From a virus, in IMG/VR virus record IMGVR_UViG_3300031718_000033, positions 1 to 33,942 of that record: a stretch of 33,942 nt of DNA, one strand, 5' to 3'. Below are positions 1 to 15,649 of this stretch, in pieces. Under the pieces are notes generated by a model. That model saw nothing but the letters and a program-made list of their open reading frames with translations. It had not been told where the DNA came from and ran no database searches. The position numbers were made by a program, and so were the translations under genes. Position 1 is the stretch's first letter. Each line of letters opens with the position of its first letter.

Positions 1-500
1 CGCGCCGCCAACCGCGCCGTCAACCGCGTCGCCAACCGCGCCGTGAACCGCGCCGCCAACCGCGTCGCCAACCGCGTCGCGAACCGCGCCGCCAACCGCG
101 CCGTGAACCGCGCCGTGAACCGCGCGGCCAACCGCGTCGCCAACCGCGTCGCGAACCGCGCCGCCAACCGCGTCGTGAACCACGTCGTGAACCGCGCCGC
201 CAACCGCGCCGTGAACCGCGTCGTGAACCGCGCCGCCAACCGCGCCGCCAACCGCGCCGCCAACCGCGTCGCGAACCGCGTCGTGAACCGCGCCGCCAAC
301 CGCGCCGTGAACCGCGCCGCCAACCGCGCCGCGAACCGCGCCGCCAACCGCGCCGTGAACCGCGCCGTGAACCGCGTCGTCAACCGCGTCGCGAACCGCG
401 CCGCCAACCGCGCCGTCAACCGCGTCGCCAACCGCGCCGTGAACCGCGCCGCCAACCGCGCCGTCAACCGCGTCGTGAACCGCGCCGTCAACCGCGTCGC
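1..500. repeat. 12-bp tandem repeat array, about 41 units
   Basis: The unit is AACCGCGYCGYS on the plus strand, tandem and without indels up to the left edge, so every unit stays in one frame. Read on the minus strand it is GTT SRC GRC GCG inside the partial gene that starts at 771. Variation is limited to three positions per unit. The only other departures I see are GCGGCC near 124-129 and CACGTC near 181-186. Confidence 0.95.
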
Positions 501-771
501 CATGGCCATCTTTCTTGATCAATGAAATCAAGAAAGCGGCAGTAGGGGCTGCAAAAGCCATCACTAATGGCGAGGAAACCCACACGACATTCCCATGCCA
601 TGGGATTTCGGCATAGTCGTAGCACTTCTTCGCGGCAGCCTCAAACTTAGGTCGATCGGCAGGAGCGGTGCGAAGGCCTATCTCGATCCAACGATCTGCC
701 CACTCATCGAAGCGAGCGGACTGCTCTGGTGTCAACGCATCAATGCGAGTGACTTTCTTAGTCTTGGACAC
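1..771 (-). CDS. Tetrapeptide-repeat protein, DUF6745-like N-terminus (partial, runs off left edge)
   Basis: Open from a GTG at 771 to the window edge (257 codons, no stop). AGGAG lies 7 nt upstream of the GTG, and the start overlaps the stop of the preceding gene (758), as usual here. Residues 1 to about 85 are non-repetitive and include WIEIGLRTAPADRP, FEAAAKKCYDYAEIPWHG and VVWVSSPLVMAFAAP. From memory this order resembles the N-terminus of DUF6745-type proteins of actinobacteria and other phyla, which also carry long short-period repeats. The rest is about 41 tandem tetrapeptides of form V-[G/H/D/R]-[G/D]-A. The C-terminus is outside the window. Function is unknown. The preceding 110-aa gene is, as I recall, a frequent neighbour of this family. 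The family name is inference; the gene itself is well supported. Confidence 0.75.
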   Translation of the reverse strand, partial: MSKTKKVTRIDALTPEQSARFDEWADRWIEIGLRTAPADRPKFEAAAKKCYDYAEIPWHGNVVWVSSPLVMAFAAPTAAFLISLIKKDGHGDAVDGAVHDAVDGAVGGAVHGAVGDAVDGAVGGAVRDAVDDAVHGAVHGAVGGAVRGAVGGAVHGAVGGAVHDAVRDAVGGAVGGAVGGAVHDAVHGAVGGAVHDVVHDAVGGAVRDAVGDAVGRAVHGAVHGAVGGAVRDAVGDAVGGAVHGAVGDAVDGAVGGA

Positions 772-10118: not shown

Positions 10119-10869
10119 CCTATTTTGCGGACTCGGCGGCTGGACCGAAGGGCTGCTAGCCGAAGGCTATTACGTCGTCGGATTCGATATTGAGCAGCAT
10201 GTGTACGGCGAGCATAAATATCCCGCGCAATTAGTTATACAAGATGTGCTGACGCTGCACGGGAAGCAATTCAAGAATGCGGCGCTAATCGTCGGTTCAA
10301 GCCCCTGCCAGGAATTCTCATGGCGCGCCATGCCTTGGAAGGCGGCTAAGGCTGCGCCGCCACCATGGCTCGGAATGGAGTTATTTAACGCGCAGTTTAG
10401 AATCCAGCGTGAGGCGTGCGAAGCTGCTGGGCGGCATATTCCAATGATAGTCGAAAACGTGCGCGGAGCTCAGCCGTGGGTCGGGCGATCGCGGTGGAAT
10501 TACGGGAGCTATCATCTTTGGGGAGATGTGCCGGCGTTGATGCCGATGACTTCAAAGCGCGGGACTAAGGTTCCAGGTTTTAGCTTCGACGGCCGAAGCA
10601 CGTGTTTCAGACAGGCTGCTGTAGATCACATGAAGAACGCCGGCGGATCTTGGTTCGCTATTTCGCACAATAAGGTTCCAATGTCGCGCGGCGATCACAT
10701 AAAGCAGGGCGGCGATTGGTTTGGCGCGGATACAGACTCGAGTTCTATGCGGCACCAATGGTCAGGCAGCATCAAGCGCAAAATGGCCAGCGCGCAAATC
10801 GCCAAAATCCCACTCCCCCTCGCGCGCCACATCGCGCGCGTCTACCACCCGAAGTCTGTCAGCCAATAA
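10099..10869 (+). CDS. DNA (cytosine-5) methyltransferase
   Basis: 256 aa from a GTG at 10099. Motif I AIDLFCGLGGWTEGL (5-19) binds AdoMet; motif IV GSSPCQEFSW (about 67-76) has the catalytic Cys after Pro; motif VI VENVRG (about 117-122). It is shorter than host C5 enzymes, and a clear motif VIII/IX target-recognition region is hard to see, as in compact phage methyltransferases. No cognate restriction gene is nearby, so protection of phage DNA is the likely role. Overlaps the membrane protein gene and ends the first rightward operon. Confidence 0.88.
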   Translation: MQPLAIDLFCGLGGWTEGLLAEGYYVVGFDIEQHVYGEHKYPAQLVIQDVLTLHGKQFKNAALIVGSSPCQEFSWRAMPWKAAKAAPPPWLGMELFNAQFRIQREACEAAGRHIPMIVENVRGAQPWVGRSRWNYGSYHLWGDVPALMPMTSKRGTKVPGFSFDGRSTCFRQAAVDHMKNAGGSWFAISHNKVPMSRGDHIKQGGDWFGADTDSSSMRHQWSGSIKRKMASAQIAKIPLPLARHIARVYHPKSVSQ

Positions 10870-10878
10870 TTATTTTTT

Positions 10879-10917
10879 CTGTAGGCCATTGACGACAATA
10901 TTATGTCGTCCTACAGT
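10879..10917 (+). promoter_or_regulatory. Promoter embedded in a two-part palindrome (probable operator)
   Basis: TTGACG (10889-10894), 17 nt, TACAGT (10912-10917) reads toward the gene at 10967. It lies inside nested inverted repeats: CTGTAG (10879-10884) with CTACAG (10911-10916), and GACGACA (10891-10897) with TGTCGTC (10904-10910). No U-tract follows, so a terminator is unlikely. Confidence 0.6.
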
Positions 10918-10966
10918 CTCCCACCGACTGCAAATTATACGTACGTAACGTTTCTTGGGAGCCTTA

Positions 10967-11164
10967 ATGGGTACATTCGATAATTCAAAGCGCCGCGAAC
11001 GTGACCCAAACGGGCGCCGATTACCCGTAACCCTGTCGCTATCTCCCGAAACACACAACCACTTAGCCAGTATAGGCGACGGCAACAAATCGCGCGCCGT
11101 CGAGAAACTGGTTGAGGCCGAGGTCAAGCGCTCACGCCGTCGCGGCGCGCCAGTCACGGCCTAG
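10967..11164 (+). CDS. Small basic protein, possible ribbon-helix-helix regulator (65 aa)
   Basis: ATG at 10967 has GGGAG about 6 nt upstream; an upstream TTG (10955) is less likely. The stretch RRLPVTLSLSPETHNHLASI then NKSRAVEKLVEAEVKRSRRR has the strand-helix-helix pattern of CopG/Arc-type DNA-binding proteins. It is the first gene behind the palindromic promoter at 10879-10917, so autoregulation is plausible. Followed 6 nt later by the primase-helicase gene. Confidence 0.7.
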   Translation: MGTFDNSKRRERDPNGRRLPVTLSLSPETHNHLASIGDGNKSRAVEKLVEAEVKRSRRRGAPVTA

Positions 11165-11170
11165 CGCGCC

Positions 11171-13438
11171 ATGGCGATCACATTCGACGATGTCGGCTCC
11201 GCTGCACTCGCGGAAGCCCTAATCCTGCTCCCACAGTGGCTCTCTGGCGGCACGCGCCGCGGGCATGAGTATTTGGGTGAGCGCAAGGCCAATGGCGGCC
11301 CTGGGGACTCCTGGACAGTGAATTTGAACACCGGCGCGTGGATGCATGGCGCGGGCAGCGAGAAGGGCGGCGATCTCATTAGTCTCTATGCTGCGCTGAA
11401 TCATATCAACAACGGCGCCGCCCTCAAGCAGGTGGCCCAGTTGATCGGAGTGACCGACGGCCCGACCCCGCGCACGCTTCCCCGCACCATGCCCGCCAAA
11501 CCAAAGGAGAAGCCCTCAGAGCCGATCCCCGATAACCCGCCACAACCGCCCCCTCACCCGACCTTAGGCGTAGCTACCGCCACCTATCGCTACGGGCGGG
11601 CATTTTGGATCACTCGCTACGATCCACCAACAGGCAAAGAGTTCTGCTGGCACACGTGGCGCAATGGCAAATGGTACCGCCAGGGCTACTCGGGGCTACG
11701 CCCCGCCTACAACGCCGACCTCCTGGGCGCCCGCCCCGATGCCCCCGTGCTCATCGTGGAGGGCGAGAAATGTGCCGATATCGCCAGCCAGCAACTGCGC
11801 AAGTATGTCTGCATGACTTGGGCGGGCGGCTCGAACGCGGTGAAGCAGACCGACTGGACGTGCCTAGCCAGCAGAGACGTCATCATCTGGCCGGATGCCG
11901 ATGACACGGGACGCGCGGCCGGCGCGCAGCTAGCCGAAATATTGGCACCGATCGCCACGCGCGTGCGCATCGTGCAGCCCAATGGCCAGGATCCGGGGTG
12001 GGATATCGATGATGCGGTCAAGGAGGGCATGGGCCCGCATGAGATTGCCAAGTGGTGTGCGGCGCATATCACGGATAAGATATCGAAGCCGGCATCTGAG
12101 CCGGCGCCGACTACGGCCGCTGCAGTGCCGGATACGACCGAGCCTTCGCAAGAGGACTCGAGCGCTGCAACGGCGGAGCCGGGGACTTTGGTCAGTGAAT
12201 ACCTAGCCGCCGAAGATCACGATGAGGACTTCGAAAACGGCGCTCCTCGTCGTTCATTCTTGATGGAATGGCAATCCCTCGGACTGGCGGCCAATTCGAA
12301 TAAGATTCCCCATCCAACACTTTCAAACGCTAGCTCGATAATCCAAAAGCACGAGGAATTTCGCAACAAAATTTGGCTCGATGAATTCCGAGGCCGTGTC
12401 TATCACTCAATGTTTGGCAGGCCAGAAGAATTGGTCGATGCGGATGTGCGTCGAATAACCGCATTCATCCAGCAGTCTTTGGGGCTTTATAAATTTAGCC
12501 TAGCAATGGTGCACGAAGGAGTGCAGCACGCAGCGGAAGCAAATGCGCGTAATCCGTTGCTTGAATGGCTCAACTCTTTGGAGTGGGATGGCGAAGAGCG
12601 ATTAGAGACGTGGCTACTTGACTGTCTAGGCGCTTCGCTCACTCCATACACTATGGCTGTAGCAAAGAACTGGGCTATTTCTATGGTCGCGCGAGCATAT
12701 GATCCTGGGTGCAAAGCCGATCATATGCCAATCCTCGAGGGCGGCATGGGCGCAGGCAAATCCTCGTTCTTGGAAATTCTCGGCGGCGAGTGGTATGAGT
12801 CTGTCACTACTGAGATCGGTAGCTTGGAATTCCTCCAGGACATTCAGGGTATTTGGCTTGTAGAAATTCCTGATATGTCGGGCTTTGGACGTCGTGAACA
12901 TGGCCAAATATTGGCTGCCATTACGGTCAAGCGTGATCGCTATCGTCAATCTTACGGGCGATTATCGCAAGGTCATAAGCGAACGTGTATTTTTGCAGCC
13001 ACCTCTGAGAAAGATGATTACCTGAAGGATTTGCGCGGTCATCGTAGGTTTTGGCCAATTCGATGCGGAGAAATAAGCCTGGATGTACTGCGTGCGCAGC
13101 GCGATCAGATATTTGCGCAAGCGGTGAAGGAATATAAAGCTGGCACTATTTGGCATAAAATGCCAGCCGAGGCTATTCAAGAGCAACTTGATCGCGGTGA
13201 TGATGATCTTTGGTCGAAGGGTGTGCTTATGTATGCGCGGGATGCGATAGATCGCGCCGGCACTGGAAAGGTAATTTTATTCCCATCCGATGTGCTGCAT
13301 GATGTTCTTAAAATAGATCCGAAGGACCAAGGCCAATCTGAGAAAAATCGCGTAGCTAATATTCTACAACGTGACGGATGGGTGCAAACAAAGCACCGCG
13401 GCGATCGCTGTTGGACGAAGCCGCGGTCTGTGGATTAA
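11171..13438 (+). CDS. Phage primase-helicase (TOPRIM plus VirE-type P-loop ATPase)
   Basis: 755 aa. The N-terminal part (about 45-70, GDSWTVNLNTGAWMHGAGSE) resembles the zinc-less start of phage primases. The TOPRIM core has VLIVEGEKCAD (about 195) and VIIWPDADDTGRAAG (about 236-250). A Pro/Ala/Glu linker spans 315-345. The C-terminal half is a VirE-like helicase: EWLNSLEWDGEERLETWL, Walker A EGGMGAGKSS (about 522-531), Walker B IWLVEIPDM (about 560), sensor ATSEKDDYLKD and Arg finger LRGHRRFWPI (about 622). It should prime and unwind DNA at the origin, whose candidate lies 1 kb downstream. Converges with the tiny minus-strand operon, overlapping by 4 nt. Confidence 0.93.
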   Translation: MAITFDDVGSAALAEALILLPQWLSGGTRRGHEYLGERKANGGPGDSWTVNLNTGAWMHGAGSEKGGDLISLYAALNHINNGAALKQVAQLIGVTDGPTPRTLPRTMPAKPKEKPSEPIPDNPPQPPPHPTLGVATATYRYGRAFWITRYDPPTGKEFCWHTWRNGKWYRQGYSGLRPAYNADLLGARPDAPVLIVEGEKCADIASQQLRKYVCMTWAGGSNAVKQTDWTCLASRDVIIWPDADDTGRAAGAQLAEILAPIATRVRIVQPNGQDPGWDIDDAVKEGMGPHEIAKWCAAHITDKISKPASEPAPTTAAAVPDTTEPSQEDSSAATAEPGTLVSEYLAAEDHDEDFENGAPRRSFLMEWQSLGLAANSNKIPHPTLSNASSIIQKHEEFRNKIWLDEFRGRVYHSMFGRPEELVDADVRRITAFIQQSLGLYKFSLAMVHEGVQHAAEANARNPLLEWLNSLEWDGEERLETWLLDCLGASLTPYTMAVAKNWAISMVARAYDPGCKADHMPILEGGMGAGKSSFLEILGGEWYESVTTEIGSLEFLQDIQGIWLVEIPDMSGFGRREHGQILAAITVKRDRYRQSYGRLSQGHKRTCIFAATSEKDDYLKDLRGHRRFWPIRCGEISLDVLRAQRDQIFAQAVKEYKAGTIWHKMPAEAIQEQLDRGDDDLWSKGVLMYARDAIDRAGTGKVILFPSDVLHDVLKIDPKDQGQSEKNRVANILQRDGWVQTKHRGDRCWTKPRSVD

Positions 13439-13596
13439 CTGGAAGCAATCGCGCTCGCAGCCAGCACTGCGCAAAGCAATATCGCAAGTCCCACAGCGAC
13501 AGCGGCCGCATATCGATTGCGCGCCTCGTGATCGACGCGGCCGTTAACAGCGCGCCAATACCTAATCGATCGCGTATCGAGTCTGACGTTGTTCAT
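13435..13596 (-). CDS. Small C-tail membrane protein (53 aa)
   Basis: ATG at 13596 overlaps the stop of the 28-codon gene (ATGA). Polar, basic N-terminus (MNNVRLDTRSIRYWRAVNGR) and one C-terminal hydrophobic span (YAAAVAVGLAILLCAVLAAS). Last of three tiny overlapping genes. No family recognised; a lysis or membrane role is only a guess. The longer frame to 13665 crosses the previous gene and is rejected. Confidence 0.6.
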   Translation of the reverse strand: MNNVRLDTRSIRYWRAVNGRVDHEARNRYAAAVAVGLAILLCAVLAASAIASS

Positions 13597-13679
13597 GACT
13601 GCAACTCCTCTAGCAAACAGACGAAGCCGATCACTATAAGCGATGCGACGGCGAGCCAATACCACACATCAGCGTTCAC
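13593..13679 (-). CDS. 28-aa single-span membrane peptide
   Basis: GTG at 13679 in a GTGA overlap with the 51-aa gene; the stop is in an ATGA overlap with the 53-aa gene. Reads MNADVWYWLAVASLIVIGF then VCLLEELQS: nearly all one transmembrane helix with an acidic tail. It is short, but the coupling on both sides supports it. A longer frame to 13868 exists but its upstream part is antisense-like and Arg-rich. Confidence 0.55.
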   Translation of the reverse strand: MNADVWYWLAVASLIVIGFVCLLEELQS

Positions 13680-13831
13680 TTGCGCGGCCTCACGGTCATA
13701 CCTGCCGCACGCGCCCCCTGTTCGCGGCATGCGCGCATCCAATTGGCGCGCATCTTCGGATCGGCGCTCAGTTCCTCGCAGAGCTTGCGCAGCGCTGCGG
13801 CTGCGTCGGTCGTCGTCGGTTTGGTGTGCAT
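13676..13831 (-). CDS. Hypothetical 51-aa protein, first of a three-gene minus operon
   Basis: ATG at 13831, with GGAG 10 nt upstream and a plausible promoter at 13869-13897. Reads MHTKPTTTDAAAALRKLCEE, then LSADPKMRANWMRACREQG and a basic end. Helical and soluble, with Ala/Arg-rich helices. The stop overlaps the next start (GTGA). No family recognised. Confidence 0.6.
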   Translation of the reverse strand: MHTKPTTTDAAAALRKLCEELSADPKMRANWMRACREQGARAAGMTVRPRK

Positions 13832-13868
13832 AAATATTCATCTCCGTATGTTGCGTCAACTGACACAA

Positions 13869-13897
13869 ATAGTAGTTTACTTAGATACACCATGCAA
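13869..13897 (-). promoter_or_regulatory. Putative promoter for the tiny minus-strand operon
   Basis: On the minus strand TTGCAT (13897-13892), 17 nt, TACTAT (13874-13869), upstream of the ATG at 13831. CTGACAC (13859-13865) and GTGTCAG (13922-13928) flank it as a 7-bp inverted pair, a possible operator. Confidence 0.4.
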
Positions 13898-13925
13898 TAC
13901 CTGATGCGTTAATTGCGTCACAGTG

Positions 13926-14249
13926 TCAGTCCTGCATTCCCCAAGGCGTATGGACCTTCGGCGGGTCGATCGCTAGACCGTCCTTATCGACCTCAACAGA
14001 TTGGTATCCCTCATGAAGGATCCGTATCAGCCGTGACTCGCTCGAATAGTCAACTTCTCTCTTGGGTAATAGCGGCGCGCGCCTTAATGTGACGCGCTTA
14101 CCAGTTTTCTTCTCCTGCCAGATTACAGTGTAGATGATGTCTCGCAGCAGCTCGGAGCGCGTCTGATGTCTGTCTTTAGCCATGCGGTCTACGCTATCGA
14201 GAATCAGCGGATCGAAACTCACCAGAACTTTCTGCATTTGCCTGTGCAT
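13926..14249 (-). CDS. Ribbon-helix-helix DNA-binding protein (107 aa)
   Basis: ATG at 14249 with AAGGAG 8 nt upstream. The N-terminus (QKVLVSFDPLILDSVDRMAK then DRHQTRSELLRDIIYTVIW) has the strand-helix-helix layout of CopG/Arc repressors: a short strand KVLVSF, helix A, a turn, and helix B starting SRSELL-like. The C-terminal half is basic then acidic without a known domain. It borders the repeat-rich gap holding several GGACAGT sites, one of them only 37 nt from its start, so it may bind them as repressor or partition/initiator factor. Confidence 0.75.
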   Translation of the reverse strand: MHRQMQKVLVSFDPLILDSVDRMAKDRHQTRSELLRDIIYTVIWQEKKTGKRVTLRRAPLLPKREVDYSSESRLIRILHEGYQSVEVDKDGLAIDPPKVHTPWGMQD

Positions 14250-14285
14250 TTATATAACTCCTTGAATTATATGAACTTAATTATC

Positions 14286-14514
14286 ACTGTCCTACTTAAC
14301 TAATTGAATATATTGATAAATTGACGGTGGACAGTGTGGACAGCACTTTCCCATACCCTTACGTTCTATAGTATATAACTACGATATATAAAACAATTAT
14401 ATATTAATGCTATTATTACTCCCTATAGAATATTACTGTACTTACTGTCCTAGTGTCATAAAGATAACGGATTCATATACTTAAGAAGGACAGTTTAGTG
14501 GACAGTTGGACAGT
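14286..14514. repeat. GGACAGT iteron-like sites (seven copies, both orientations)
   Basis: Plus orientation: 14329-14335, 14338-14344 (GGACAGC), 14488-14494, 14500-14506, 14508-14514. Minus orientation: 14286-14292, 14444-14450. They cluster on both sides of the AT-rich stretch, as initiator or partition binding sites do. Confidence 0.75.
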
Positions 14515-14526
14515 CTTAAATGTCAG

Positions 14527-14623
14527 TTTAATAGACCGGCCTAATAAACGGGTTCAATCGGTTTAATAGAGCGGTCTATTGAGCGCATTCAATAGGCAGG
14601 CCTAATGAGCGGACTCAATAGAC
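14527..14623 (+). repeat. Degenerate 12-13-bp tandem repeat array, about eight units
   Basis: Units such as GGTTTAATAGAGC (14560-14572), GCATTCAATAGGC (14585-14597), AGGCCTAATGAGC (14598-14610), GGACTCAATAGAC (14611-14623), with shorter copies before them. Rough consensus GGNYTMAATRGRC. Each unit contains an RRYYTMAAT-like core, and several are partly self-complementary. Confidence 0.7.
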
Positions 14624-14761
14624 GCCAGCACTCCTTTGATCCATATGGAATTCGCTGCGATGCAGCAAAGCGCAATGCTGCGTTGCAACGAACGCTAACC
14701 CTGGCGAACTCGACAGACATTAGATCCCTGCCGCTGACTGGTATTGGTTTACACGAGCAAC

Positions 14762-15163: not shown

Positions 15164-15649
15164 GTGACAAGTACGAAGAATCACGTCTGGGTCAACGTGC
15201 ATTTTCCAAAGGATGTCCACGCGAGCCTCAAAGCCTGGTGCATTCGAAACGGTCGCTCGATGCAGGATGGCTTAGTCGAAATGGTAGCCCTGATGTCTGG
15301 GCCGAACGGGTTGCGGCTAACTCAGCCAACAGCGGTGATGCCCACCGTGCATCGCGCGCCGGATCCGCTACCGCAGGCGGCCGCTGTGCCCGTGCGAACC
15401 GCGCCGCCGAAGCCAGCGCCACCGCCGGAGCCGCGCGGATTCAGGCCAGGCAGTGCAGGCCAGATATACCGCGACTGCTTCGGCGAGCCGCCACCGGGTA
15501 TGTATGACGAATACGGAAATACCATTGACACGTCTAGCCCAGATGATAGTATTGACGCAAATGAGTACTCAGACGAATACGGAGACGACGACACAGAAGA
15601 GGAAGCGGGTGAACCTGACGTTGACGCCAGAGACGCACGGCCGCATTAA
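15164..15649 (+). CDS. RHH-like protein with Pro-rich linker and acidic tail (161 aa)
   Basis: GTG at 15164 with AGGAG 5 nt upstream. Residues 8-45 (VWVNVHFPKDVHASLKAWCI, then RNGRSMQDGLVEMVALM) have the strand-helix-helix pattern of RHH or CopG proteins. A Pro/Ala linker follows (about 65-95, PPKPAPPPEPRGFRPGS) and a strongly acidic end (EYSDEYGDDDTEEEAGEPD). DNA-mimic-like acidic tails occur in regulators, but the role is unknown. Its first domain is similar to the next gene's, which is read in another frame over this tail. First gene of the rightward late chain. Confidence 0.78.
   Translation: MTSTKNHVWVNVHFPKDVHASLKAWCIRNGRSMQDGLVEMVALMSGPNGLRLTQPTAVMPTVHRAPDPLPQAAAVPVRTAPPKPAPPPEPRGFRPGSAGQIYRDCFGEPPPGMYDEYGNTIDTSSPDDSIDANEYSDEYGDDDTEEEAGEPDVDARDARPH

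Follow-up and report, generated by a model that had tools for sequence, protein, structure and literature searches.

The window analysed here, the whole of viral record IMGVR_UViG_3300031718_000033 (33,942 bases), carries two tiny coupled genes, P28 and P53, on its minus strand, facing a VapE-like primase/helicase gene. Comparison with a related phage indicates that both are very likely genuine genes under purifying selection for protein. They encode two predicted single-span membrane peptides, and we propose, tentatively and without rating it as probable, that these form a translation-coupled accessory inner-membrane pair that acts on the host envelope, most likely in superinfection exclusion. 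The original prediction described a set of three nested genes of 51, 28 and 53 amino acids (aa). All three open reading frames (ORFs) lie at the place and on the strand that it gave, the 28-aa frame having a GTG start, and they overlap by GTGA (13679-13676, P51 with P28) and ATGA (13596-13593, P28 with P53), by 4 nt in each case; the overlaps run from the end of one frame to the start of the next, and nested is not the word for them. P51, the frame that heads the chain, is found in the window alone and its coding status is unproven.

Conservation of P28 and P53 in a second phage

The second phage, IMGVR_UViG_3300050821_004237 (68,871 bases; G001), was reached through a primase search, and its primase and terminase are 63% and 90% identical to those of the window. 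It holds P28 and P53 at the same place and in the same order, coupled by ATGA and convergent with the primase gene. The two versions of P28 are identical at 27 of 28 aa, its start being read as M (ATG in G001), and those of P53 at 48 of 53. Counted over P28 codons 2-27 and P53 codons 3-51, which excludes the start codons and the shared ends, the 9 substitutions in P28 produce 1 amino-acid change where 5.7 were expected, a figure as low as this being reached by 4 of 20000 random placements, and the 23 substitutions in P53 produce 4 changes where 14.4 were expected (0 of 20000 placements as low). Third codon positions account for 7 of the 9 and 17 of the 23 substitutions. It is because P28 and P53 are conserved in G001 with this excess of silent changes that we take their frames to be real.

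The overlap architecture and codon usage were both rejected as proof of coding. The architecture of the 51-, 28- and 53-aa chain is not beyond chance: among ORFs of 25-80 aa linked by NTGA, 33 starts in the window open chains of three and 7 open chains of four (40 in total), the corresponding figures for G001 being 39 and 5, and these are counts of start positions rather than of independent chains, many starts sharing one chain. The codon-usage score is non-discriminating, since 287 (P51), 271 (P28) and 970 (P53) of 4000 null windows, drawn as stop-free stretches in the wrong frame, scored at least as high; among the variable ORFs only a 72-aa ORF of G001, introduced below, is set apart by it, as high a score being reached by 27 of 4000 nulls.

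These two results would suit an explanation in which P28 and P53 are not real frames and the DNA is kept on account of something else, an antisense RNA or a gene on the plus strand for instance, and so would one plus-strand frame that also shows just 1 change in 25 codons over the P28 stretch. That frame belongs to a 151-aa ORF (13378-13833), which in the window is open over the entire minus-strand chain and which a gene caller could wrongly choose. Over the P53 stretch, however, the 151-aa frame alters 20 of 49 residues and meets a stop in G001, a phage that lacks the ORF and that has no ORF of at least 20 aa in the matching plus frame over the P28 stretch; the plus-strand gene was rejected on these grounds. 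All five of the other frames across the P53 stretch change 6-20 residues, and none of them stays free of stops in both phages. With the substitutions concentrated at the third positions of the minus frames, spurious frames are very improbable.

An in-frame extension of P53 upstream to 76 aa (from 13665) was likewise rejected, as 5 of its 6 extra codon differences alter the amino acid. Shine-Dalgarno-like motifs stand 5' of all three starts (GGAG for P51, GAGG for P28 and GAGGAG for P53), that of P53 lying within the final codons of P28. Third-position divergence from G001 is lower in the pair (0.27 and 0.35) than in the terminase gene (0.51), possibly through a further constraint, for example the embedded ribosome-binding site, or through a shared ancestry that is more recent for this stretch.

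Ahead of the pair the two phages differ. No relative of P51 or of the RHH protein encoded upstream of it was found in G001, which has at the position of P51 two ORFs of 72 and 43 aa, coupled by ATGA to each other and to the P28/P53 pair; coding by these ORFs is likewise putative, and the 72-aa ORF begins from the same 25-bp leader that precedes P51 in the window. Because the pair is kept while the genes in front differ, P28 and P53 are, on this comparison, a stable unit behind exchangeable genes. The proposal that the three genes make up one set is thus not supported: of the frames, which were to be followed in related phages, P28 and P53 are conserved in G001, whereas P51 is replaced there and has no relative in the other searches.

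Those searches gave little beyond G001. By tblastn, neither P28 nor P53 matched anything in the phages (50,697 records) or plasmids (72,556 records) collections, in viral_contigs each matched G001 only, and tblastn of 107 loci (E 0.05) recovered G001 for the pair and otherwise the window alone. A scan of genome_contigs with P53 (10 stretches) yielded no relative, and an alignment of the primase there (15 stretches) yielded none. A P53 profile matched 0 of 49 records at E 1, these being 47 of the best 80 of 565 terminase-bearing relatives together with records G002 and G003, and the search was run without a positive control, so that its empty answer shows little; 33 loci lay outside the profile set, among them L015 and L093, which are the G001 and G002 records again. 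For P51 and the RHH protein the phages collection yielded no match and viral_contigs no relative (60 candidate stretches for P51), and tblastn with P51 over the 107 loci matched only the window. Weak profile lines for P28 (PDR_assoc, E 0.032; LAXTG_small_WW, 0.093) and for P51 (PGR5, 0.013; EexN, 0.066) lie far under the curated cut-offs and were dismissed as chance; for P51, as for the pair, PHROGs, Pfam, NCBIfam and PADLOC contained nothing usable. In the available portions of the literature on small phage membrane genes and DUF932, no paper apparently describes the P28/P53 pair. As far as these comparisons go, P28 and P53 are a new small family of a familiar kind, the small phage membrane proteins. 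Genes of 28 and 53 codons are readily missed in annotation, and these two are missing from the libraries searched; they make a clear case of how tiny genes can be validated by silent-change counts between two relatives.

Table 1. Positions of the chain and its neighbours in the window.
Feature	Position	Strand	Description
P53	13435..13596	-	53-aa peptide; basic N-terminal half, single C-terminal membrane span
P28	13593..13679	-	membrane peptide of 28 aa with one span; start codon GTG; net charge -3
P51	13676..13831	-	51-aa soluble basic ORF; heads the chain; putative coding status
Leader	13827..13851	-	25 bp, including ribosome-binding site and start codon; same sequence in G001, where the next gene differs
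Promoter-like site TTGCAT-17-TACTAT	13869..13897	-	weak, 7/12, found by eye
RHH (CopG-type) protein, 107 aa	13926..14249	-	Pfam RHH_1; upstream of the chain
VapE-like primase/helicase	11171..13438	+	Pfam VapE-like 3e-63; PHROG DNA helicase 4.7e-75; convergent with P53, the two stops overlapping by 4 nt
A+T-rich stretch (68%)	14266..14560		six GGACAGT copies, 4 + 2 on the two strands

Membrane peptides and their possible role

The expectation that two of the three products are single-span membrane peptides agrees with their hydropathy: the best 19-residue Kyte-Doolittle mean is 2.40 in P28 and 2.67 in P53, each of which has one hydrophobic span, against -0.03 in P51, which has none. The net charge of P28 is -3, the peptide having no basic residue at all, and that of P53 residues 1-29 is +4. 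P53 was modelled as a single long helix over residues 3-52 (mean pLDDT 82.6, pTM 0.37, from a two-row alignment). A clear basic face on this helix was rejected: shuffles with an R/K moment as high numbered 443 of 10000 for residues 3-20, 540 of 10000 for residues 3-16 and 1818 of 10000 for residues 3-29, at best a weak indication, and the hydrophobic moment was not significant.

We suggest that P28 and then P53 would be translated in coupled fashion to give two single-pass inner-membrane peptides, and their opposite charges and coupled translation suggest that these may sit together in that membrane. The positive-inside rule would place the N-terminus of P53 inside. The pair would come from an antisense transcript next to the replication genes, separate from the late genes, and it could hinder the entry of DNA from another phage (superinfection exclusion) or otherwise alter the membrane during infection; within this class of host interactions, superinfection exclusion is our best guess. 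The proposal draws on the excess of silent changes, the kept order, coupling and place of the genes, the spans, the P53 helix, the charges, the patchy distribution, the differing genes ahead of the pair in G001, the lack of an adjoining recognised lysis gene and the tiny coupled membrane peptide at the corresponding place in G044, described below. Several points weigh against it. Neither peptide has a match over the cut-off in Pfam or NCBIfam, or a usable one among PHROG families or PADLOC defence models (E 1). The genes are known from two phages only, the case for selection coming from one pairwise comparison, and the timing of their expression is inferred from position only. Finally, a Pfam scan that took in 73 of the 89 greedy G001 ORFs of at least 70 aa brought up no integrase family (8 were scanned singly, for part of the others matches are known by family and not by ORF, and most of the 16 ORFs outside the scan are probably spurious or cut by locus ends); prophage-type exclusion is thus not indicated, and an exclusion role would have to operate in lytic infection.

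The same properties can be read in other ways. As a lysis or lysis-timing pair, P28 would serve as a minimal holin whose antagonist is P53, the peptide with the basic N-terminus; the small size, coupling, single spans and opposite charges of the two would suit such a function, and both are short with a hydrophobic span, as holins and antiholins are. The available part of a study of small phage genes, including those of mycobacteriophage LeBron, reports that some inhibit growth when overexpressed, the toxic ones including a protein with one span from a phage lysis cassette (PMC13148394). P28 and P53 are like these proteins in size and unlike them in forming an antisense, coupled and conserved pair beside a primase, with no tblastn match in phages. 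The pair lies on the strand opposite the structural genes and adjoins the VapE-like primase, with no recognisable lysis gene or hydrolase beside it (in G001, by the Pfam scan above); this is the position next to replication genes, outside a lysis cassette, that had been claimed for it. The single cell-wall hydrolase domain among the scanned ORFs of G001 belongs to an SLT transglycosylase (10143-11078), from which the pair, at ~56.4-56.7 kb, is ~45 kb away, or ~22 kb the other way if the genome is circular; the ends of the record share an exact 25-base repeat, which may merely be part of a tandem array. Because the best PHROG match of the SLT gene is a lytic tail protein (1.3e-22), followed by endolysin (2.1e-19), its product may be a virion part with the lysis genes elsewhere, so that their place in G001 is uncertain, a point in favour of a lysis role for the pair. 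G001 has alternative holin candidates in two other membrane proteins, one of 148 aa that adjoins the SLT gene (11035-11481) and one of 106 aa at 52294-52614 (L013 294-614), ~4 kb from the pair, which has two hydrophobic spans and no Pfam or PHROG match. In the Rz/Rz1 spanins the outer-membrane partner has a lipobox and the other a periplasmic domain; read by eye, P28 and P53 have no lipobox and no room for a periplasmic domain. A function in lysis is unlikely.

Two further explanations are about as unlikely. P53 could anchor replication or segregation to the membrane, its basic cytoplasmic helix lying near the DNA or the replisome and P28 aiding its insertion; in favour of an anchor are the adjoining primase, RHH protein and repeat-rich A+T stretch, the +4 charge and a model in which residues 3-52 form one helix. 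Yet the indication of a basic face is weak at best, and six of the eight records with such a primase gave no sign of the pair, which is not how a core replication part would behave. Because of this patchy distribution and the swapped neighbours, an accessory host-interaction module fits better than a core replication part, and the anchor has a low probability. It is also improbable that P28 is a membrane peptide that inhibits growth in the manner of TisB or DinQ, both type I toxins, and has a protective partner. The length of P28 and its single span are as in type I toxins such as TisB, DinQ and ShoB, TisB being of 29 aa in the available part of a source in which these toxins mostly have positively charged C-terminal residues, with IbsC, ShoB and DinQ as exceptions (PMC8309996). 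Convergent overlapping genes could, moreover, yield an antisense RNA. P28 has no basic residue, a weak point against a toxin given that IbsC, ShoB and DinQ are alike in their C-terminal part, and unlike the type I toxins it is coupled to a second membrane peptide; PADLOC gave no match.

For the superinfection exclusion that we tentatively prefer, known proteins offer a comparison. The SieA protein of phage P22 is placed in the inner membrane. SieA (PMC10883804) and the small protein DicB (PMC6832061) are described, in the portions of these sources available, as proteins of phage origin that shield the cell against other phages. Set beside them, P28 and P53 are two tiny peptides instead of one protein and are known here from sequence alone.

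The strand facing the primase in related phages

Primases of the window type occur in the window, G001, G002, G003, G006, G042, G044 and, as a partial match, G045 (one primase survey spanned 49 records), and the P28/P53 pair occurs in two of these eight records, the window and G001. Inspection of the stretch after the primase in G002, G003, G006, G042 and G044 revealed no such pair; G045 was outside this inspection, and there neither the P53 profile nor tblastn found it. Primase matches in the phages collection number 940 records, all at less than 60% identity, and no antisense pair follows the primase in the surroundings of three of them, VarioGold, Mica and Aval. Burkholderia phage Mica has an annotated 31-aa membrane protein a few genes past its distant primase, on the primase's own strand (L105 5100-5195); its sequence is unrelated by eye.

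The minus strand facing the primase of G044 is occupied by an 86-aa RHH-like ORF (Pfam RHH_3, 18.8 bits, under the cut-off of 21.6), a DUF932 gene, a 155-aa ORF and an ATGA-coupled single-span peptide of 39 aa. The RHH-like ORF matches the RHH protein of the window at 33% over 55 aa. As in the window, the operon faces the primase and has a tiny coupled single-span peptide at its end, and an RHH-like ORF heads it much as the RHH gene stands upstream of the window chain; unlike the window, its 39-aa peptide has no tblastn similarity to P28 or P53 at E 0.05. A terminator-like hairpin with a run of T follows this operon (L089 4618-6473), as judged by eye. The slot appears to be of one kind in the two phages, with different occupants in G044; this is a single case that could be coincidence, and the strand facing the primase may favour tiny membrane peptides.

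A wider proposal, which is speculative and to which we attach only a slight chance, is that the primase-facing strand of this phage group is a dedicated slot in which an RHH regulator controls a fast-changing operon whose last members are tiny coupled membrane peptides, one or two in number. A small membrane complex of these peptides would either tether the regulator, together with the repeat-rich origin region, to the membrane of the host or close that membrane to rival phages at the start of replication. The proposal is based on the window, in part on G001 (the pair without the RHH gene) and on G044, where the peptides are unrelated. If it were true and the antisense slot recurs, it would be a place to seek host-membrane effectors in phages known only as sequence.

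Probable regulator, leader and repeats upstream of the chain

The RHH protein upstream of the chain scores 22.2 bits against Pfam RHH_1 (gathering cut-off 20.5) and is a probable local regulator. The case for a promoter of the chain's own is weak in the window. A scan of 13200-14700 returned 4 promoter-like sites against 2.6 expected in shuffles, with no site just upstream of 13831, and its best minus-strand site (10/12, at 14293-14266) lies before the RHH gene; by eye the chain has only the weak site of Table 1. In G001 TTGACA-17-TACCAT (10/12) stands before the operon, 2 sites being found there against 1.5 expected. MAFFT does not align these last two sites with one another. The 25-bp leader is identical at 100% between the window and G001, and its 20-base core occurs at one exact place in viral_contigs, in G001, a scan that may omit the window's own record.

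Repeats occupy the same place in relatives as GGACAGT does in the window, namely CTTACAGT in G001 (3 copies) and G002 (6 copies) and AAGTGTC/GTGTCTA in G006 and G044, all counted without a shuffled control. As the repeat word varies while the layout persists, an origin or operator is the likely kind of element at this place, and the GGACAGT-rich A+T stretch of the window is possibly one of these. On its far side, at 15164-15649, is a gene of 161 aa that matches ParG weakly (20.1 bits; cut-off 21.4) and whose product is possibly RHH-like as well. This ParG-like gene and the minus-strand RHH gene flank the repeat-rich stretch, possibly in a plasmid-like layout for partition or copy control. At the left end of the window (1-502) there is a tandem array of a 12-base unit in ~42 copies, and the G001 record opens with an ORF of similar repeats (L010 1-534); the tandem array may have broken the assembly.

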